From a virus: a stretch of 43,527 nt of DNA. Position 1 is the first letter of the stretch. Each line of letters starts with the position of its first letter. The notes under the pieces were generated by a model. The model was not told the DNA's origin and did no database searches. It saw nothing but the letters and a program-made list of their open reading frames with translations. Shown in pieces: positions 13,106 to 43,527 of this stretch. The stretch is taken from IMG/VR virus record IMGVR_UViG_3300024932_000048, positions 1 through 43,527 of that record. One strand, given 5' to 3'. A program made the position numbers and the translations under genes.

Positions 13106-14068
13106 CTAGACCCCAAGCCTGTTCAGAAGATTATATGAATTCGCCCAATTTGCGTGACCGCGCCATGATGCGATGAATTTGTTAAGCGCAGCATCGTTAT
13201 TAGATGCGCGGTATTTTTTAATTTTTCGTTTAGCGGCAATTACTGATCTGCGACGGATTAGCTTATGCGTCGGCCAAATACGGTAACCCAGCCAATCCAG
13301 CCCATGCGACACATGCCCGATACTCCACTTTGAAAACGTCAGACCCATGTTAGCCTCTGAAAACCACTTAAGCCCGAATTGCAATACCGCCAGCGCCTCG
13401 GGGCTATGCGAAAAAATCACCGTGTCATCCATGTAGCGCAGCCAATGCTTAATATGGAGCGTATGAGTAAGATAGCGGTCAAGGATATGCCCATAAACAT
13501 TAGCAAAAAGCTGACTGGTCAGATTTCCGATCGGTAGGCCGCAGCCAGCGGCGGGAAGAAATGCAGCAATAAGCGCCAATGTACTTTGGCAGCTTATCTT
13601 TCTCCTGATCTCGCCATGCAAGACGGCGCGATCAATGTTGGCAAAATATTTTGAATAATCCAGCTTTAACCAGTGAGTAAGGCCCCGACGCATAATAGCT
13701 TGCGCCTCAATTACCGCAGCATGCGTCCCTTTTCCCGCTCTACATGCGTAATTGTTAGGCAAGAACGTCCGATCGAAAATAGGCTCTATCACATTACATA
13801 AGGCATGCTGAGCCACTCGATCCGCAAAAGGCAACGCGGAAATCTCTCGGCGCTTAGGTTCATTAACAAAGAATATGTTTGGCGGTGACGGCCTGTAACT
13901 ACCAGTCCGTAGCGCATCTGAAAGCATACGGAGATTTGCCGCCAAGTGTTGCTTAAACTGCAAATGCCCGGCGCTATATCGCTTGCCTTTTGCCGCCTTT
14001 TGATAAGCTCGATACAGATTCGGCATACTGGCGATTTCCGCGATTAGATTTTTGTATTTTTTACCCAT
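13106..14068 (-). CDS. Diversity-generating retroelement reverse transcriptase
   Basis: 320 residues from the ATG at 14068; the frame is open to 14158 but that extension looks non-family. Group II-like RT domains are visible: catalytic Asp in LKLDYSKYFANID (D137), the DGR-diagnostic motif IGNLTSQ (about 180-186, in place of the QGxxxSP of retrons and introns), and RYMDD (about 211-215). There is no maturase, protease or integrase domain, as in DGR RTs. It copies the TR RNA into adenine-mutagenised cDNA that replaces the VR. It lies 147 nt downstream of the TR, the spacer arrangement of BPP-1 brt, and works with Avd. Confidence 0.95.
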   Translation of the reverse strand: MGKKYKNLIAEIASMPNLYRAYQKAAKGKRYSAGHLQFKQHLAANLRMLSDALRTGSYRPSPPNIFFVNEPKRREISALPFADRVAQHALCNVIEPIFDRTFLPNNYACRAGKGTHAAVIEAQAIMRRGLTHWLKLDYSKYFANIDRAVLHGEIRRKISCQSTLALIAAFLPAAGCGLPIGNLTSQLFANVYGHILDRYLTHTLHIKHWLRYMDDTVIFSHSPEALAVLQFGLKWFSEANMGLTFSKWSIGHVSHGLDWLGYRIWPTHKLIRRRSVIAAKRKIKKYRASNNDAALNKFIASWRGHANWANSYNLLNRLGV

Positions 14069-14214
14069 AAGTTGCAAGTTCGTCTTTCGAAAGTTCCTAC
14101 TCGACGATCTCTTGACCTCGTAATGTATTTGCCGAAGCAGGATGATGAAGCTGACCACAAAACAGCGTGATCGGCGCCGGCGGCCTTAACCGGTCGGCGC
14201 GGAAGATAATCGTC

Positions 14215-14318
14215 GTCACTGGCAGCCCGCAAGCCGATGTTCCAGTTCGAGTTCCACGGATAGTTGTTCCAGTTGGAAGCGCGAGATCCAGAGTTCGAGC
14301 CGTTCGTACGCGTGCCGC
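14215..14318 (-). repeat. DGR template repeat (TR)
   Basis: 104 bp, non-coding, between the avd stop and the RT gene. On the transcribed (minus) strand it carries eight AAC codon-like triplets placed in the reading frame of the VR. It matches the VR at 14737-14840 with 15 mismatches, 14 of them at TR adenines. Of 23 TR adenines 14 differ; of 81 other bases only one does, a C/G change in the 3' part (IMH versus IMH*), which is silent. Confidence 0.96.
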
Positions 14319-14329
14319 TTTTATCTTAA

Positions 14330-14701
14330 TCATCCCTTTACTGCCTTGCTTTTTATCCATGCGCCAAGCATTTTCCCGGTTTCAGCGAGGTGAATCGATG
14401 CCACCTCGTGCTGATGCCGGCTGATGAGCCGCCTGTTTTCGTTAGCAAGGAAACGCAGTAAAAATCTCAGGTGTGCCAATCCGGCATCGGCAAGATACAG
14501 CTTTGATATTTGCGCTGATTTTCCTGCCTGCTGTAAAAAGCTAACCTGATCAAACATTGCACCAATCAATCGATCCCGAATGACGTGGTGCGATCGGCGA
14601 ATATTAAGCGCTATCGGATAGATATAATTTATAAACCCTTCAAACCGCTCAATAATCGCCAGTTGCCGTTGACTGGCAAATTCGTCGCTTAAAAAATCCA
14701 T
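14330..14701 (-). CDS. avd: Avd, DGR accessory variability determinant
   Basis: 123 residues from the ATG at 14701, preceded by GGAAGCGAG; a TTG at 14722 overlapping the target stop is an alternative. The protein is all-helical, with LAFLRF-like run LAHLRFLLRFLANENRRL and the C-terminal ETGKMLGAWIKS typical of the Avd four-helix-bundle family. Avd forms a basic pentamer that binds the RT and TR RNA and is needed for retrohoming. It lies between the variable gene and the TR, as in BPP-1. Confidence 0.92.
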   Translation of the reverse strand: MDFLSDEFASQRQLAIIERFEGFINYIYPIALNIRRSHHVIRDRLIGAMFDQVSFLQQAGKSAQISKLYLADAGLAHLRFLLRFLANENRRLISRHQHEVASIHLAETGKMLGAWIKSKAVKG

Positions 14702-14718
14702 CACTCGCTTCCGCTCGC

Positions 14719-15783
14719 TCAATCAAGTTGCAAGTGGTCACTGGCAGCGCGCAAGCCGAAGGACCAGTCCGAGTACCACGGATAGAAGCCCCAGTAGGAA
14801 GCGCGAGAGCCAGAGCTCGAGCCGCTCGTACGCGCGCCGCCTAACAAGACTCTCGTATTGGTATTATGGTACATCTGTCCGCGCCCGCCATTGACACTCC
14901 CCCACGCAAATCCGGACGCCTGAGTGCCGGTGTCGCTACCCCATATCCAATGGTGGCCCGTCGCCTGCTCAATCCCGTATTTACTCGTGTAGCCAGGGTT
15001 TCGCTGCGTCAGCGGATATGTCGAAGCTGTCGCATCGATTGATTGATTTTCAGTCACTCCAAACGCCGCATCAACAAACTCGCTTTCTCGTAATAAGCGT
15101 TTCCCGGCCGCGCGAGCCAGCTCATTAGCCGCCCACCATGTCATGTTCGTATAATTTAACGTTCCGTTGCCGCCGAACGCGATAGGGATTTTGGGCAAAA
15201 CTGTACCTGACGCTATGTTTGTGCCGGATTTGCTAGTGCCATTTGCGGCTGTATCGGTCGAACATAGATATACATCCACCCATATGTCATTGACAAACGC
15301 CATACCCTTTGGCGACGGACATTTAGGTCTAAACCTTAAGTCCCATATTGAGTAGTGGTTGATGCCTGCAAGCTTGTCAACATCTGATTGAGTCCAAATC
15401 ATGCCGGGGCCGGTTGTTGCGAAGGAGCCACCCGCTACCGTTTCACCGGTCGCAACCAGTCCGTAGTGGAAGCCGCCGATCAAACGACTATTTGATGCTG
15501 AGTATCCAGCAGGGTAGGTAAACGAGGAGTCCGCTCTGATGCTGCCATCCGAGCAGGCATAGACTGCGTAATCGACGCCAGAGGTCAGCGTTGGCATAAG
15601 AACAGCGGTATCTATAGTGATAGATACCAGGGCACTGCCTACGGCGATCCAAGTATCTGCTTTTACATTCAACGCCCCGGCGCCGACCTTTTCAAAAACA
15701 GGGCTAAATGAGTCAGCCTTATCAAACACCAGACGACTATTGGCCTGGCGACCGCTCGCGCTCGTCAATATAGTGATACCCAT
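14719..15783 (-). CDS. DGR-diversified variable protein, C-type-lectin/FGE fold
   Basis: 354 residues. N-terminal about 140 residues are a beta-rich anchoring domain. Residues about 145-354 form a formylglycine-generating-enzyme-like C-type lectin fold: WWAANELARAAGKRLLRESEF, then WIWGSDTG and the terminal SGSRASYWGFYPWYSDW segment. The VR encodes residues 315-349; positions 317, 320, 323, 330, 332, 333, 337, 339, 341 and 342 carry TR-adenine-derived changes, all eight AAC codons having become Ser, Ser, Tyr, Gly, Phe, Tyr, Asp or Ser. A receptor-binding role is likely by analogy with Mtd of BPP-1. It lies 2 bp after the gene at 15785-16132. Confidence 0.93.
   Translation of the reverse strand: MGITILTSASGRQANSRLVFDKADSFSPVFEKVGAGALNVKADTWIAVGSALVSITIDTAVLMPTLTSGVDYAVYACSDGSIRADSSFTYPAGYSASNSRLIGGFHYGLVATGETVAGGSFATTGPGMIWTQSDVDKLAGINHYSIWDLRFRPKCPSPKGMAFVNDIWVDVYLCSTDTAANGTSKSGTNIASGTVLPKIPIAFGGNGTLNYTNMTWWAANELARAAGKRLLRESEFVDAAFGVTENQSIDATASTYPLTQRNPGYTSKYGIEQATGHHWIWGSDTGTQASGFAWGSVNGGRGQMYHNTNTRVLLGGARTSGSSSGSRASYWGFYPWYSDWSFGLRAASDHLQLD
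14737..14840 (-). repeat. DGR variable repeat (VR)
   Basis: 104-bp partner of the TR at the 3' end of the variable gene. On the + strand, mismatches to the TR fall at offsets 13, 24, 26, 27, 33, 39, 50, 51, 53, 54, 60, 73, 80, 89 and 99; all but offset 13 are T in the TR (A in the transcript). The invariant end GGCTTGCGCGCTGCCAGTGA is the candidate initiation-of-mutagenic-homing site. Only six codons and the stop follow it. Confidence 0.96.
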
Positions 15784-17936: not shown

Positions 17937-18308
17937 TTAACCTTGCATAACACTGGGTGCGATGCGCATCCAGATGACATCGTTTAAAACGCCGGATACG
18001 GTTGCGTACCCAGCAATATGCGTATTAACACCCGCCGCCGGAGCCGCCGTAACCGCCAGCCCGTTAGCATCGGAAGTCAATTTGTCGCCGCGCGTCACCG
18101 TGCCGCCTAAACGCACCTCGACACAATCGTCAACAATAATGTCGGCACGATCGCCCAATACGCCGCCGATATTGCCATTACCGCCGATAATCAAATCAGT
18201 TGGGCCGGCGGCTGGAACAACAACCCCGTCCGCTGCTCCGAATTTAATCAGCTGATACGGATCAGTATCTGCCCCCAGTGCATAATTGATAGATTCGCCT
18301 TCTCTCAT
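17937..18308 (-). CDS. Head decoration protein (DUF2190-like cement)
   Basis: 123 residues; beta-rich with GGNGNIGGVLGDRADIIVDD and RLGGTVTRGDKLTSDANGLAV, the typical pattern of phage capsid cement proteins of the DUF2190 type that stabilise the expanded shell. Start overlaps the protease/scaffold stop by 4 bp (ATGA) and the capsid gene follows after 9 bp. Confidence 0.8.
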   Translation of the reverse strand: MREGESINYALGADTDPYQLIKFGAADGVVVPAAGPTDLIIGGNGNIGGVLGDRADIIVDDCVEVRLGGTVTRGDKLTSDANGLAVTAAPAAGVNTHIAGYATVSGVLNDVIWMRIAPSVMQG

Positions 18309-18823
18309 GACTTCACCTTGTCCACATTGGCAGTAACGGCATCGACCGCATCAGCCGTGCTGATATGGATGCCGAATTCAAGTTGCTTGGCTTGATAAGC
18401 GACGGCCCGTTGCGCAATCGCTTTATCGCTGACCGCCTGGGCTTGCTTGTCATGACCGGCAATCTCGCCGAATTCCACTTGTTTAGGCAGCTTGGCTAAA
18501 AACTCTTTCCGGAACCAGTCCAGTCCGTTGATTTTAGTTTTAGCGTCGCCCTCGCCGAACTCGATCACATCGGCCGGTTTTTCAGCGGCCATAAAAGCCA
18601 CCAAGCCGTCTTTATCGCGCGGCAATATCTTGCCTTCGGTGATCAGTGATTCTACAAAGGCGCTCGTGGCGCTCAATTTTGTAGCAAACTCGATTTGCGC
18701 AAGCTTGGCTTCGCGCTGGCCGAACTCGGCTTCTTTGGCCGTCAGCTGCTCTTGTTGTGCAGCAATGTCTTGCTGCTTTTTATCTAGTTCCGCCTGTTTA
18801 GCGGCGATTTCTTCGGGGGTCAT
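18305..18823 (-). CDS. Nested scaffold protein from an internal start (gpZ-like)
   Basis: An in-frame ATG at 18823 within the protease gene is preceded by GGAG with a 5-base gap (complement at 18829-18832). It would yield a 172-residue protein starting MTPEEIAAKQAELDKKQQD, that is, exactly the coiled-coil scaffold portion without the protease. Mu makes gpZ and lambda makes Nu3 in this way. The start is seen in sequence; use is inferred. Confidence 0.6.
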   Translation of the reverse strand: MTPEEIAAKQAELDKKQQDIAAQQEQLTAKEAEFGQREAKLAQIEFATKLSATSAFVESLITEGKILPRDKDGLVAFMAAEKPADVIEFGEGDAKTKINGLDWFRKEFLAKLPKQVEFGEIAGHDKQAQAVSDKAIAQRAVAYQAKQLEFGIHISTADAVDAVTANVDKVKS

Positions 18824-19330
18824 AGTGGCTCCAGGGTTTGAGGGGGTAGCGGTATCGGCCTGCGCTGCGCTGCCGGTTGTTTCGGATTCGCCGAATTCGA
18901 TAATGATTGCATCGCCGCCATCTGCAAATTCCGGCGCAGCCAGCCCTTGTACGGCAGGCGGGTGCGCACCCAGAAAGCCCACATGACGCAGGTAATACAC
19001 GCCGGGGACGGGGTTGTTAGGACTATCGGGATGGTAAAAAGCGGCGGAGATTTTTGGGAACAACTTATCGTTGACCATTTGCCCGAAGGCCGGATAGACA
19101 TCTTTGGGGATCGCCGACAAAATGCCGTCGGCAAACGCCAACGAGGCTACCCAGCCAAATGCGGGGCTATCGGTCTGGGGATGACCGACCACCAACGGCG
19201 CATCTTTCAGCGCTGGGTCATAGGCCGTTGCGGTCGCAACAACATCGGCTTCGGAAAACGTCAGCGCATCACCACTCATCGTAGTGTGCGTGCCGGGCTT
19301 AAAAATTTGGATGAGGTTATTTTTTTTCAT
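18305..19330 (-). CDS. Mu gpI-like prohead protease with fused scaffold
   Basis: 341 residues from the ATG at 19330 (reading MKKNNLIQIFKPGTH, the usual family start); an ATG at 19351 adds seven residues. Residues about 1-150 are the Mu-like protease domain (APLVVGHPQTDSPAFGWVASL, YYLRHVGFLGAHPPAVQGL). Residues about 175-220 are a Gln/Glu/Lys-rich coiled coil, the scaffold part. It cleaves the scaffold and itself during head maturation. This is the first gene of the leftward late operon; no strong ribosome site is visible. Confidence 0.88.
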   Translation of the reverse strand: MKKNNLIQIFKPGTHTTMSGDALTFSEADVVATATAYDPALKDAPLVVGHPQTDSPAFGWVASLAFADGILSAIPKDVYPAFGQMVNDKLFPKISAAFYHPDSPNNPVPGVYYLRHVGFLGAHPPAVQGLAAPEFADGGDAIIIEFGESETTGSAAQADTATPSNPGATMTPEEIAAKQAELDKKQQDIAAQQEQLTAKEAEFGQREAKLAQIEFATKLSATSAFVESLITEGKILPRDKDGLVAFMAAEKPADVIEFGEGDAKTKINGLDWFRKEFLAKLPKQVEFGEIAGHDKQAQAVSDKAIAQRAVAYQAKQLEFGIHISTADAVDAVTANVDKVKS

Positions 19331-19364
19331 GGCGCTCAGTGTAGCGGCCATGAATGAACGGGGG

Positions 19365-19572: not shown

Positions 19573-19794
19573 ATGACTATCCCATACGTTTCAGAACAAG
19601 TCGCTCATGAAAAAGCTCTGGCGCTGGCTGCCCAACTGGAGGGCTTAGCGATTAGCCAAGCGCTTTACATCCTCCAGGAACTCACCCCGCAGTTAATCAC
19701 CAATAGCCATCGTATTACCAAAGACGCCATTATCGCTGCTGGAGAGCAATTACTTTCTGGCGGCAATACGTGTCGGCGCATAACGCCCTGGTAA
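19573..19794 (+). CDS. Small cassette-type protein, function unknown
   Basis: 73 residues from the ATG at 19573 preceded by AGGAGACACC. Predicted mostly helical (HEKALALAAQLEGLAISQALYILQEL). The stop codon lies within the attC-like site at 19778-19864, the usual arrangement of an integron gene cassette. It is transcribed divergently from the late operon. No family recognised. Confidence 0.6.
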   Translation: MTIPYVSEQVAHEKALALAAQLEGLAISQALYILQELTPQLITNSHRITKDAIIAAGEQLLSGGNTCRRITPW

Positions 19795-19864
19795 AGGGCG
19801 CGCATGAATGAAACCGAACAACGCGCTGAACTTTAGGCGCGTCCCGTTGACCAGAGAGTTATAC
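19778..19864 (+). other. attC-like recombination site 1
   Basis: 87 bp. The 5' arm GCATAACGCCCTGGT... (19778-19803) is imperfectly complementary to the 3' arm ...GACCAGAGAGTTATAC (19836-19864); the arms align with single unpaired bases on one side only, like the extrahelical bases of attC. The R'' box is GCATAAC (the complement of the V. cholerae VCR core GTTATGC) and the R' box is GTTATAC with G^TT at 19858/19859. The terminal loop is 32 nt. No integrase gene is in the window. Confidence 0.65.
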
Positions 19865-19885
19865 CCAATACGCACAGGCAGAACT

Positions 19886-20035
19886 ATGAATAGAATCATC
19901 AACTGGATAAGAACCGGCGACGCAGAGTTAAATTATCCGCTGGACGATTATGATAGAGAACGTCATAAATTCCACTGGATCGCTCTGGTAGTGACTTTAG
20001 CGGCTTGGTTTTTTACTATTTACGCAATTGTATAA
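19886..20035 (+). CDS. Small single-pass membrane protein in an attC-bounded cassette
   Basis: 49 residues from the ATG at 19886. A charged N-terminal half (NWIRTGDAEL, DDYDRERHKFHW) is followed by one membrane segment, IALVVTLAAWFFTIYAIV, at the C-terminus. The stop TAA is part of the R'' box of attC site 2, and the gene starts 27 bp after the crossover point of site 1, so the segment 19859-20143 (285 bp) is a textbook-sized gene cassette. Confidence 0.6.
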   Translation: MNRIINWIRTGDAELNYPLDDYDRERHKFHWIALVVTLAAWFFTIYAIV

Positions 20036-20149
20036 CGCCATGTTCAGGCGACCGCCTGAGGAAAGACCTTAACAGCAAGATGAACTTTGAAACGCACATA
20101 TTTTAAACAGCGCTCGCGTCGGCGGGTCGCCTGCAACTAACTGTTAGGC
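20030..20149 (+). other. attC-like recombination site 2
   Basis: 120 bp. R'' GTATAAC at 20030-20036 and R' GTTAGGC (matches the consensus GTTRRRY) at 20143-20149. Inside, CAGGCGACC-GCC (20045-20056) pairs with GGCGGGTCGCCTG (20121-20133) with one extra base on one side. Loop 64 nt. Total length is within the range known for attC sites. Confidence 0.7.
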
Positions 20150-20155
20150 TTAACA

Positions 20156-20323
20156 ATGTCTCCAGAAGAATTTATTAAAAGAGCAAATAAGGCAAATAAT
20201 AACTTGGAAGAAATTGACCAGCTCTGCTATTTGTGGCTTGAGCAAAAAGCGGCTCAATGGCAAAAGAACGGCAGAATAGCTGTAGATGCGCTTCAAATAT
20301 TTAAACGCCTTACCGAAAATTAA
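20156..20323 (+). CDS. Small soluble protein, third cassette-like gene
   Basis: 55 residues from the ATG at 20156, only 12 bp after the crossover of attC site 2, beginning MSPEEFIKRANKANNN with WLEQKAAQWQKNGR in the middle. The base composition is richer in A than neighbouring phage genes. No clear attC follows; the sequence TAACGCG near 20336 may be the remnant of one, interrupted by REP-like hairpins. Function unknown. Confidence 0.5.
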   Translation: MSPEEFIKRANKANNNLEEIDQLCYLWLEQKAAQWQKNGRIAVDALQIFKRLTEN

Positions 20324-20408
20324 AGCGCAAGCCCCTAACGCGAAATAGGCACACAAACCGGCGTCTATCACAACAAACACACCGTTTTATGCAATAGTTG
20401 AAACGTTT

Positions 20409-20456
20409 GGGACGGGGTTGCAAACCCCGTCCCGCCCAGCCAACGCTGGAGCGTTG
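20409..20456. repeat. Two REP-like hairpins
   Basis: GGGACGGGGTT at 20409-20419 is inverted at 20423-20433 with a 3-nt loop; CAACGCT at 20441-20447 is inverted at 20450-20456. They occupy the gene-free gap 20324-20502 and look like dispersed bacterial repeats. The first is related in sequence to the GGACGGG hairpin at 16630-16652. Confidence 0.7.
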
Positions 20457-20502
20457 CGGGATGCATACGATACAACGATACATATTTTCTTTAGGAGACA
20501 CC

Positions 20503-20679
20503 ATGAACACACTCACCCCACAAGACAAACTCGAACTGGCTACACGAATCAACCAATTGATGGATGATTTCTTTGCCGAAAAACAATGTCGGCCGGATGA
20601 GGATGTATTGCTGCTGGCATTTCATGCCCGCGCTGACATCAGTACCCGACGCTGCCTATTAAGCAACCGGTTCGATTAG
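20503..20679 (+). CDS. Small protein, function unknown
   Basis: 58 residues from the ATG at 20503 with the leader TTTAGGAGACACC, nearly the same leader as the gene at 19573, suggesting related origin of the two small genes. Helical (DKLELATRINQLMDDFFAEKQ). Its last codons overlap the 3' end of the leftward gene 20659-20859, and the final residues look unselected. Confidence 0.45.
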   Translation: MNTLTPQDKLELATRINQLMDDFFAEKQCRPDEDVLLLAFHARADISTRRCLLSNRFD

Positions 20680-20859
20680 CCTCTTGAAAAGCTGATACAA
20701 ATAATTCACCAGCATTTCATAATCCGAGGTCTCCTTGTTAACGCAGGCGGCCTTAGCTTTGTAGGTAAGATCGCCCAACATCGCACTCTTGTTATGCGCC
20801 AGATCAGCGGCCGTCTGCGCCGCCAATTTCAATAGTTCAATTTGCGTTTGTTCGTTCAT
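20659..20859 (-). CDS. Small helical leftward protein, function unknown
   Basis: 66 residues (MNEQTQIELLKLAAQTAADLA...). The ATG at 20859 is chosen over 20865 because GAGAG is 7 bases from it but only 1 base from the other. It lies downstream of the leftward repressor gene and in the same direction, so it may be co-transcribed in the lysogen. No family recognised. Confidence 0.5.
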   Translation of the reverse strand: MNEQTQIELLKLAAQTAADLAHNKSAMLGDLTYKAKAACVNKETSDYEMLVNYLYQLFKRLIEPVA

Positions 20860-20955
20860 TATCATTCTCTCGGTTTGGGTTTGGCGGCAATGACCACTAT
20901 TGAATTAACAAGTGCGCTAGTTAAACGCTTAAGTTAAGTTGCTTAGTGGGGCGTT

Positions 20956-21348
20956 TTAAGCCCTTTTTTTCCTCCCTTGTTGCGTCTCATCCTTGTTGTC
21001 CGCTTTAGCGGCTATAAAGGCCATGCGTTTGATGGCCTCCTGATCCTCCTTGGCGCAATGCTCGACGTTATCCAGTAGCGCGGCTTGGTCGGGTCTGAGC
21101 ACCCGTGCCCCGGGCAAGGTTCCTGAAGAGATACCAGTCAGGATGTATTGCACGTCGGCACCGGCTGCGGCAAATGCGAACAAAACTTCTCCTCCTGGAA
21201 CTGCTATTCCTCTCTCGTATTTACCCCACATTTCCCTGCTAACACCACATAACTCGGCGGCCTCGGCCTGATTTAAGCCAAGATCTTTCCGTGCGGTTTT
21301 TAAGCGTTCAGCAGAATGCGATAAAAAGTTCTCATCAATATTTGACAT
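20956..21348 (-). CDS. Phage repressor, XRE-type (c repressor role)
   Basis: 130 residues with an HTH_3 domain at about residues 12-68 (RLKTARKDLGLNQAEAAELCGVSREMWGKYERG) and a short C-terminal region without a peptidase domain. It is divergent from the Ner-like gene across a 75-bp control region, which is where Mu-like phages keep c. It likely represses the early promoter and hence transposition in the lysogen. The basic C-terminus (GRKKRA) may add DNA contacts. Confidence 0.8.
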   Translation of the reverse strand: MSNIDENFLSHSAERLKTARKDLGLNQAEAAELCGVSREMWGKYERGIAVPGGEVLFAFAAAGADVQYILTGISSGTLPGARVLRPDQAALLDNVEHCAKEDQEAIKRMAFIAAKADNKDETQQGRKKRA

Positions 21349-21367
21349 AGATAACTTAAGTTCTCAT
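21326..21367. promoter_or_regulatory. Candidate c/ner operator region
   Basis: AACTTAAGTT (21353-21362) is a 10-bp palindrome just ahead of the repressor start, and AAGTTCTCAT occurs twice (21326-21335 and 21358-21367), 32 bp or about three helical turns apart. CTTAAGTT recurs beyond the other end of the repressor gene (20929-20936). Binding by the XRE repressor and/or Ner is inferred. Confidence 0.45.
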
Positions 21368-21423
21368 AATTAACACAACACGAACACAAACCAAACGCTG
21401 ACCAACTTTAACCGGAGCGAGTC

Positions 21424-21636
21424 ATGACAACACAAACACAAAAAACACCCGACGAGGTCAAAGCCGACTTTCTGGCCAAGGGCCTCACCATTTCCGGCTG
21501 GGCGCGATCCAACGGCTATAAGCCGCGCGAGGTCTCCCTAGTCCTAAACGGCCAAGTCAAAGGCCGTTACGGCAAAGGCCACGATATAGCCGTGGCCCTG
21601 GGCATTAAACCGCACCCCGACCAAGCCGCCGCTTAA
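21424..21636 (+). CDS. ner: Ner-like DNA-binding protein
   Basis: 70 residues. KADFLAKGLTISGWARSNGYKPREVSLVLNG is the Ner/Nlp-type helix-turn-helix pattern; Ner turns down early and repressor promoters during lytic growth in Mu. It is the first rightward gene after the divergent control region and has CCGGAGCGAGTC upstream. Length agrees with Mu Ner. Confidence 0.82.
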   Translation: MTTQTQKTPDEVKADFLAKGLTISGWARSNGYKPREVSLVLNGQVKGRYGKGHDIAVALGIKPHPDQAAA

Positions 21637-32730: not shown

Positions 32731-32874
32731 ATGCCTGTCGTTTTTGTAATGATGGGCTGGCACAGGCCGCCCTCGGGCGGGCCGTTTCCTTTTGAGCGGT
32801 AGTGAGATCCTGTGTCAGTCCATCACCCAATCTCGCAGGTGATGGCATCTTTAATTTCAAAAGGAAAAAATATC
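32731..32874 (+). promoter_or_regulatory. Structured antirepressor mRNA leader with C4 target sites a' and b'
   Basis: Holds the C4 targets at 32756-32763 and 32796-32807, a 23-codon leader frame (ATG 32731, stop 32800-32802) that spans both targets, a CCGCCC/GGGCGG hairpin (about 32768-32781), a long-range TGGCACAGG/CCTGTGTCA pairing and a CCATCACC/GGTGATGG hairpin (32820-32845) just before the antirepressor. C4 pairing would block leader translation and expose the message to premature termination, by analogy with P1. Confidence 0.65.
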
Positions 32875-33582
32875 ATGAATACTGCATTACAAACCTTCCA
32901 CTTCCAATCCCATCAATTAACCGTCATTACCGATGAGCACGGCGCATCCTGGTTTATCGCCAAAGAAGTTGCTGAAATATTGGAATATAGCGATGCGCAC
33001 AAGATGTGCGAAAAACTAGATGATGATGAAAAGTCAAACCGCGAAATCGGCGGTTTGGGAACAGCTACAGGTGGACGTGGAATTATCATCATCAACGAGT
33101 CCGGATTATGGTCATCGGTCCTACGAAGCACCAAACCCGAAGCCAAGACGGTTAAAAAATGGCTCACCTCAGAAGTCCTTCCTGCTATCCATAAAACCGG
33201 CAGCTATAACGCCCCCAACACTGAAGCGCAAAAGCTAATGGAGATAAAAGACCAATTACTGGACTCGCAAAAACAATTGCTGGCCTCGCAACAGTACAGC
33301 CATGAGGCTTTCAAGGAAAAAACCAACGCCTATATCGAGCATTTGACCCAGCAAAACAAGCAGCTTAATTTTAGAGCCAATATCAACGCAGAGAGCAATA
33401 AGCGAAACCGCGAGGAATTGGCGCGGGCGGTACGCGCTCAGCGTCCGATTGCCGCCGCCGAGGAGAAGGAAATTGCGGAATGGCACGCGCAGGGCTGGAC
33501 GGTGCATAACTTAGCGATCCATTTTTATCGTAATGCCGGTATTATTCGCCGCTCTATCCGTAATCAAGGAGGTACGGTATGA
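32875..33582 (+). CDS. Phage antirepressor with BRO-N domain
   Basis: 235 residues from the ATG at 32875, chosen for AAAAGGAAAAAA upstream; a GTG at 32812 would start inside the leader. Residues about 1-110 are a BRO-N domain (HQLTVITDEHGASWFIAKEVAEILEYSD, NESGLWSSVLRSTKPEAKTVKKWLTSEVLPAIHKTGSY). A coiled coil and a KilA-C-like basic end with a resolvase-type HTH (EEKEIAEWHAQGWTVHNLAIHFYRN) follow. It is expected to inactivate the prophage repressor when C4 control fails. Stop overlaps the next start. Confidence 0.88.
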   Translation: MNTALQTFHFQSHQLTVITDEHGASWFIAKEVAEILEYSDAHKMCEKLDDDEKSNREIGGLGTATGGRGIIIINESGLWSSVLRSTKPEAKTVKKWLTSEVLPAIHKTGSYNAPNTEAQKLMEIKDQLLDSQKQLLASQQYSHEAFKEKTNAYIEHLTQQNKQLNFRANINAESNKRNREELARAVRAQRPIAAAEEKEIAEWHAQGWTVHNLAIHFYRNAGIIRRSIRNQGGTV

Positions 33583-42613: not shown

Positions 42614-42769
42614 ATGGAAATTCGTTGCGGGAAATGTAGTAAAAAGTTGGCTGAAGGCGAGTTTATTTGTTTATCGATAAAATGCCCGAGGTGCGGTGCG
42701 ATTAATCATCTGAAGGCCATCGAGCCTCTCATCAGTACGCCTAGAGCGTCAGACAAAGAGGTTTTATAA
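42614..42769 (+). CDS. com: Com-like zinc-finger translational activator
   Basis: 51 residues, too short for most gene callers. Zinc finger C5-x2-C8 and C24-x2-C27 (RCGKCSKKLAEGEF, KCPRCGAINHLKAIEP), matching the Mu Com family. In Mu, Com binds mom mRNA and unmasks its start codon. Here the stop overlaps the start of the Dam gene (TAATG), so coupling or Com binding probably sets dam expression. Confidence 0.9.
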   Translation: MEIRCGKCSKKLAEGEFICLSIKCPRCGAINHLKAIEPLISTPRASDKEVL

Positions 42770-43527
42770 TGGTAAATCCAATGATTCCCTGGGTAGGCGG
42801 TAAAAGGCGTTTGGCCAAACACATTCTGCCAATGTTCCCTGCTCATGAGTGTTATGTTGAGCCGTTTTCTGGCGGCGCGGCGCTATTTTTCATGAAAGAG
42901 CCGGTGCGTGTTGAGGTAATCAATGATATTAACGGTGAGTTGGTTAATCTATATCGTGTTGTGCAAAATCATTTAGAGGAGTTTATCCGGCAGTTTAAGT
43001 GGTCGCTAGTCAGTCGGCAGATGTATAAGTGGCTTAAGCTGGCGCACGTTGAAACGTTGACCGATATCCAAAGGGCGGCAAGGTTTTACTATCTGCAAAA
43101 AATGGCTTTCGGCGGTAAGATCTCGGGGCAGACATTTGGTACGGCTACCACGAGCGCGCCCAGGTTAAATTTGCTGCGGATCGAGGAAGAGTTATCGGCG
43201 GCTCATTTGCGGTTATCTCGTGTGTATATTGAGCATTTGGCGTGGGATGATTGTATTCGTCGGTATGACAGGCCGCACACGCTATTTTATTTAGACCCGC
43301 CGTATTGGGGGACCGAAGGTTATGGCGTTGTTTTTGAATTTGATCAGTATGCCAGGATGGCTGAATTAGCCGGATCAATCAAAGGCAGTATGATTATTTC
43401 GGTTAACGATATCCCTGAGATGCGGCAAGTATTTTCAGGTATGGAAATGTCGGTGGTTGATATTAAATATACTGTAGGCGGTAAGCAGGGCAAATCCGCG
43501 AAGGAATTAATTATCCGCAATTTTTAG
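42769..43527 (+). CDS. dam: DNA adenine methyltransferase, D12 class (Dam-like)
   Basis: 252 residues. WVGGKRRLAKHI (8-19) and EPFSGGAALFF (31-41) form the SAM-binding motif I region; DPPY at 176-179 is catalytic motif IV. Lacks a restriction partner nearby. It replaces Mu mom as the DNA-modification gene behind Com, so it probably protects phage DNA from restriction or alters repressor/transposase site methylation. Ends exactly at the window edge. Confidence 0.93.
   Translation: MVNPMIPWVGGKRRLAKHILPMFPAHECYVEPFSGGAALFFMKEPVRVEVINDINGELVNLYRVVQNHLEEFIRQFKWSLVSRQMYKWLKLAHVETLTDIQRAARFYYLQKMAFGGKISGQTFGTATTSAPRLNLLRIEEELSAAHLRLSRVYIEHLAWDDCIRRYDRPHTLFYLDPPYWGTEGYGVVFEFDQYARMAELAGSIKGSMIISVNDIPEMRQVFSGMEMSVVDIKYTVGGKQGKSAKELIIRNF

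Follow-up and report, generated by a model that had tools for sequence, protein, structure and literature searches.

Reversed genes in a probable remnant integron cassette array carried by a Mu-like phage

Do the small open reading frames beside the head protease gene of a phage belong to integron-type gene cassettes, and if so, which way do those cassettes run? The question was raised by a first-pass annotation of IMG/VR record IMGVR_UViG_3300024932_000048, which we analyzed over its whole length (43,527 bp, hereafter the window). The annotation described two attC-like sites at 19778-19864 and 20030-20149, and assigned to them cassettes whose genes are read on the plus strand. We compared this strip with attC models built from known integrons, with related phages, and with possible donor genomes.

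The phage and the setting of the strip

The window contains matches to the Mu portal, Mu F, transposase, head protease, and major head protein and, judged from these, is a Mu-like phage, as had been suggested. The strip lies within a series of small ORFs, of which most are on the plus strand, between the genes for the head protease (18305-19351, minus strand) on its left and a repressor-like protein (20956-21348, minus strand) on its right. Head protease, capsid, and tail genes extend leftward from 19351, and transposase, terminase, portal, and Mu F genes extend rightward from about 21 kb. The late genes are thus arranged in two divergent blocks, and the arrangement from protease to repressor is the same in the related contig L012.

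Several other elements accompany the phage genes. The window carries a complete diversity-generating retroelement (13106-15783, minus strand) consisting of a reverse transcriptase (RVT_1), a template RNA (14074-14200, Rfam Phage_DGR), the accessory protein bAvd (14330-14722), and an Mtd-like target gene (14719-15783). At 32745-33582 on the plus strand, a C4 antisense RNA (Rfam, 71 bits) immediately precedes the gene for a BRO-N protein, a layout that resembles the antirepressor control of P1 but occurs here in a Mu-like phage. A D12-class adenine DNA methyltransferase gene (42769-43527, plus strand) occupies the extreme end of the record. Beside the strip, at 20404-20436, is a REP-like palindrome, GGGACGGGGTTGCAAACCCCGTCCC. 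A Thiodictyon plasmid carries a similar stretch, as does contig L014, where it occurs in both orientations; the 25-bp core of the repeat is absent from all 369 gammaproteobacterial genomes sampled.

Two attC sites

As a yardstick, integron integrases were gathered from 369 Gammaproteobacteria and the adjoining DNA was fetched for 40 of them. Training attC sites were taken from arrays whose successive R boxes match. They were used for an end-anchored weight model, with the sites oriented by their intI gene for the polarity test described below. A second model, a covariance model whose arms covary strongly, was trained on 49 chromosomal-integron attC sites, none of them from the window.

Both models place the two sites exactly where the annotation had put them, about 165 bp apart. 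The R'' and R' core boxes it listed are also present and read, on the plus strand, GCATAAC/GTTATAC in the first site and GTATAAC/GTTAGGC in the second. In the minus-strand reading, attC1 (19778-19864) starts with GTATAACTCTCTGGTCAACGGGACGCGC and ends with GCGCGCCCTTTACCAGGGCGTTATGC; its R'' box is GTATAAC (19864-19858) and its R' box GTTATGC (19784-19778). In the same reading attC2 (20030-20149) starts with GCCTAACAGTTAGTTGCAGGCGACCCGCC and ends with GGCGGTCGCCTGAACATGGCGTTATAC, with R'' GCCTAAC (20149-20143) and R' GTTATAC (20036-20030). The ends of each site are boxes of the RYYYAAC and GTTRRRY type. A box whose variable place is A or T deviates from the strict consensus by one base, which is also the case in known arrays.

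In the plus reading, the weight model gives log-odds of 34 for attC1 and 31 for attC2. No unrelated candidate in the window exceeds 9.8, and 24.3 is the highest value reached in 100 dinucleotide-shuffled windows. The covariance score of attC1 is 31.0 bits, with E 3.7e-5 when the whole window is searched. For attC2 the score is 25.2 bits, with E 0.003 in a search of 153 kb of phage DNA and E 2.7e-5 in one of the 1.4-kb strip. This second site was reported with default filters and not in the filters-off search of the whole window, presumably owing to a length limit of that mode. Nothing else in the same 153 kb reached E 5, and related phage DNA that lacks the strip gave no match. At E 0.05, covariance matches in chromosomal integron regions score 21-61 bits. 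On this model, the attC sites attributed to phages TJE1 and M16-3 fall at about 20-32 bits, the three best matches in TJE1 lying at 22.0-32.5 bits. Both sites in the window have the paired arms, and the extrahelical bases on one arm, of an attC structure.

Palindromes of another kind, such as terminators or REP elements, might give a similar appearance. The folding energies of the sites alone are just modestly better than those of shuffled sequences, and REP-like palindromic DNA lies close by at 20404-20436. However, neither site is terminator-like, and the two model matches share one polarity, have matching cassette ends, and are without counterpart in the remaining phage DNA. The model scores largely refute this explanation, which we regard as very improbable. 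Taken together, the scores on both models, their agreement with the range of TJE1 and M16-3, and the complementary cassette ends described below identify both as genuine attC-type sites, as far as sequence can tell.

Minus-strand orientation of both sites

An attC site is nearly palindromic, and it is unpaired features, extrahelical bases among them, that fix the strand used by IntI (PMC8946536). The annotation had remarked that unpaired bases occur on one arm only. Their placement is correct, but the arm that carries them marks the sites as minus-strand, not plus-strand. In a leave-one-locus-out polarity test, the weight model assigned the right strand to 122 of 123 known sites. It scores attC1 at 39.7 on the minus strand and 27.7 on the plus strand, and attC2 at 36.6 and 17.0, respectively. 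The covariance model agrees, with 31.0 bits on the minus strand versus 15.3 on the plus strand for attC1, and with 25.2 bits versus no match for attC2.

The opposite reading, that of the annotation, is a plus-strand array in which the second and third ORFs of the strip are normally oriented cassette genes and the middle cassette measures 285 bp. The positions of these ORFs relative to the sites are as it described: the first ORF stops at 19792-19794, inside attC1, and the next two occupy 19886-20035 and 20156-20323. Both begin shortly past the boxes and stop within them, like normal cassette genes. However, the preference for the minus strand by 12 and 20 bits, in a test with a single error among the known sites, and the strong preference of the covariance model for that strand at both sites make a plus-strand array quite unlikely. 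We therefore conclude from their structure that both attC sites point to the minus strand. This polarity shifts the cassette limits and leaves the second and third ORFs antisense to their attC sites. The case illustrates that the orientation of a cassette should be taken from the structure of its attC site, not from its ORFs.

Cassette limits

With limits set by minus-strand sites, the middle cassette is 252 bp long (19784-20035), and the length of 285 bp does not hold. This complete cassette (cassette B, minus strand, with attC1 as its attC) extends from TTATAC to the G of GTTATGC, and its ends, GTTATAC and GTATAAC, are exactly complementary. A probable second cassette of 303 bp (cassette A, 20036-20338, minus strand, with attC2 as its attC) lies upstream of it on the minus strand. 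The right-hand start of cassette A, G|TTAGGG (20339-20333, minus strand), matches the expected GTTAGGC at six of seven bases. The start of each cassette is accordingly complementary to its own R'' box at seven of seven positions in cassette B and at six of seven in cassette A. Exact complementarity, as at the ends of cassette B, is also seen in 91 of 106 pairs of neighboring attC sites in chromosomal integron regions. The covariance model found no third attC site near 20340.

The cassette bodies have a GC content of 0.39-0.42, compared with 0.52 for the phage. This composition, together with the absence of the strip from more distant phage relatives, indicates that it is foreign to the phage.

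No match to the integron integrase family (TIGR02249) was found in the window or in four sibling records, which bears out the statement in the annotation that the cassettes have no integrase. There is accordingly no complete integron here, which would have an intI gene with attI. A cluster of at least two attC sites that lacks a nearby integron integrase is known as a CALIN (PMC9024848), and with two attC sites and no such integrase the strip belongs to this class. The strip at 19778-20338 is thus very probably a remnant cassette array carried in the accessory small-ORF region of a Mu-like phage. The cassettes would be passengers, with no integrase of their own. Against this explanation, the ORFs of both cassettes are antisense to attC, which is uncommon; searches found neither a donor integron nor a matching cassette; and the folding energies are modest and a promoter was not recognized.

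Genes in the strip

The first ORF (ORF1, 73 aa, 19573-19794, plus strand) begins behind a leader that belongs to the phage itself, CCCAGGAGACACC, and now ends inside attC1. The same leader precedes a different ORF in L012. The second (ORF2, 49 aa, 19886-20035, plus strand) has a hydrophobic C-terminal segment by hydropathy (residues 32-49), and the third (ORF3, 55 aa, 20156-20323, plus strand) encodes a soluble protein. Each has the best codon score of its six frames (0.18 for ORF2, 0.15 for ORF3). These scores, together with a GC content of 0.40 for ORF2 and 0.38 for ORF3 against 0.52 for the phage, suggest that both ORFs are probably genuine and of foreign origin. Cassette B contains no ORF longer than 15 codons in the sense direction. 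No family match was found for the ORF2 protein, and no credible one for the ORF3 protein, in the libraries searched. Cassette genes are commonly without recognizable relatives.

An ORF usually, though not obligatorily, runs in the direction of its attC site, and in both cassettes here it lies on the opposite strand. The sense ORF is the longer one in 92 of 104 cassettes of known arrays. Four of the 12 exceptions nevertheless have a toxin gene in the sense direction (BrnT, ParE), and another two carry a genuine reversed gene for a PIN-domain toxin. Given these numbers, two consecutive reversed cassettes are not unheard of, yet unusual. The two reversed toxin cassettes, in chromosomal integrons L083 and L078, resemble those of the phage in that the gene is antisense to attC and its stop codon lies 0-7 nt from the cassette start. 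However, they encode recognizable PIN-domain toxins and reside in chromosomal arrays, unlike ORF2 and ORF3, which have no credible family match.

In their cassette orientation, ORF2 and ORF3 would not be read from an integron promoter. These 49- and 55-aa ORFs are in line with a series of rightward small genes (ORF1, ORF2, ORF3, and an ORF at 20503). No promoter was recognized for the ORFs of the strip. Most likely they are read along with the small-gene run of the phage or from promoters of their own.

Relatives, donors and route of entry

Three sibling contigs are identical to the window over 3.2 kb. Two others, L002 and L004, are identical up to position 19925, inside ORF2 and cassette B, and continue into unrelated DNA. 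In L002 the similarity returns at about 20916, at 76% identity. The accessory and immunity region of L002 (5270-6600) is wholly different from window positions 19925-21500, a modular swap of the repressor genes. The end of identity within cassette B indicates that the array either predates the split of L002 and L004 or was inherited on one side, and that ordinary phage mosaicism cut it later. When relatives lacking the strip were compared, as the annotation had proposed, the strip was not matched in L012, L013, or L014, whose proteases are 74-80% identical to that of the window, although L013 and L014 end shortly past that point and are a weaker test.

The annotation supposed that the cassettes came from a chromosomal integron by secondary insertion, but searches for such a source gave no donor in the collections covered. 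The cassette proteins matched only the same phage population among 84,980 genomes, IMG/VR, and PLSDB. The DNA of the strip gave no donor among phages and plasmids, or among 85 genomes of the order with the closest-looking attC arms. For the host, the major head protein found at best 48% identity among the 369 Gammaproteobacteria and 201 genomes of an order with pmoA-type methanotrophs. A methanotroph host, suggested by repeat sequences, was not borne out by this result.

There are two ways in which the array may have entered the phage. One is illegitimate recombination during phage mosaicism that captured a piece of a longer array, to which we give about an even chance. The break in L002 and L004 at 19925 arose by such an event, and this route has been proposed for other phages by Qi et al. 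2023 (PMC9892861). However, the left edge of the strip falls on an R' box, and integrase action would explain this equally well. The other is that a host integron integrase inserted the cassettes at an attG-like site, as a 555-bp insertion between 19783 and 20339. Both candidate ends read G|TT, the joined flanks leave ORF1 open (predicted empty site CGGCGCATAA|CGCGAAATAGG), and cassette insertions into genomes are known (Loot 2024, as cited in PMC12901181). However, a right-flank search did not find the empty site, and it gave no relative that has the flanks but lacks the strip. The right flank (20339-20400) includes a 20-base piece that occurs only in sibling phages carrying the strip. In addition, the right end departs from the expected box at one base of seven, and no relative is known for the basic tail that joining would add to ORF1. 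Integrase-made insertion is thus possible but doubtful, and illegitimate recombination is somewhat more likely, although the choice is not firm.

Comparison with known phage cassettes

The annotation considered phage-borne cassettes rarely described. That description is fair, but a systematic survey of phage CALINs appeared in 2023: among 10,705 phage genomes screened, Qi et al. counted three complete integrons, one In0, and 17 CALINs (PMC9892861). Five of the six attC sites they assayed recombine, and two sites of TJE1 were recombined by IntI1 (PMC9892861). Like the CALINs of phages TJE1, PH101, and P12002L (PMC9892861), the strip combines attC sites and small cassettes with no integrase in a phage genome, and its sites fall within the covariance score range of those of TJE1. 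Unlike them, it resides in a Mu-like phage with a retroelement, the ORFs of its two cassettes run against attC, and the recombination of its sites is predicted. Shewanella phage vB_SspM_M16-3 is likewise a temperate phage with a cassette array and minus-strand attC sites. However, it is P2-like (Peduoviridae) and has an integron integrase and a longer array. A search of article text in an open-access library yielded no clear precedent for attC sites in a Mu-like phage. Phage-borne CALINs are already known, and what is unusual here is the type of phage and the reversed genes.

By analogy with the tested attC sites of other phages, a host integron integrase may act on these sites. The plus strand of the window would be the bottom strand of attC and, when single-stranded, would fold into hairpins that the integrase could cut. 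A cassette could then be excised in trans, or transferred into an integron of the host.

It is also conceivable, though improbable, that a host integrase put the cassettes directly into the transposable phage and that the antisense genes were kept as they join its rightward operon. If this were true, cassettes that would stay silent in an integron would be used by the phage and could be spread by it.

The locus adds a transposable, retroelement-bearing Mu-like phage to the few phages known with integron recombination sites. Phages that bear attC sites are a possible route for cassettes between bacteria, and the reversed genes raise the question of whether phages favor cassettes whose genes align with phage transcription.
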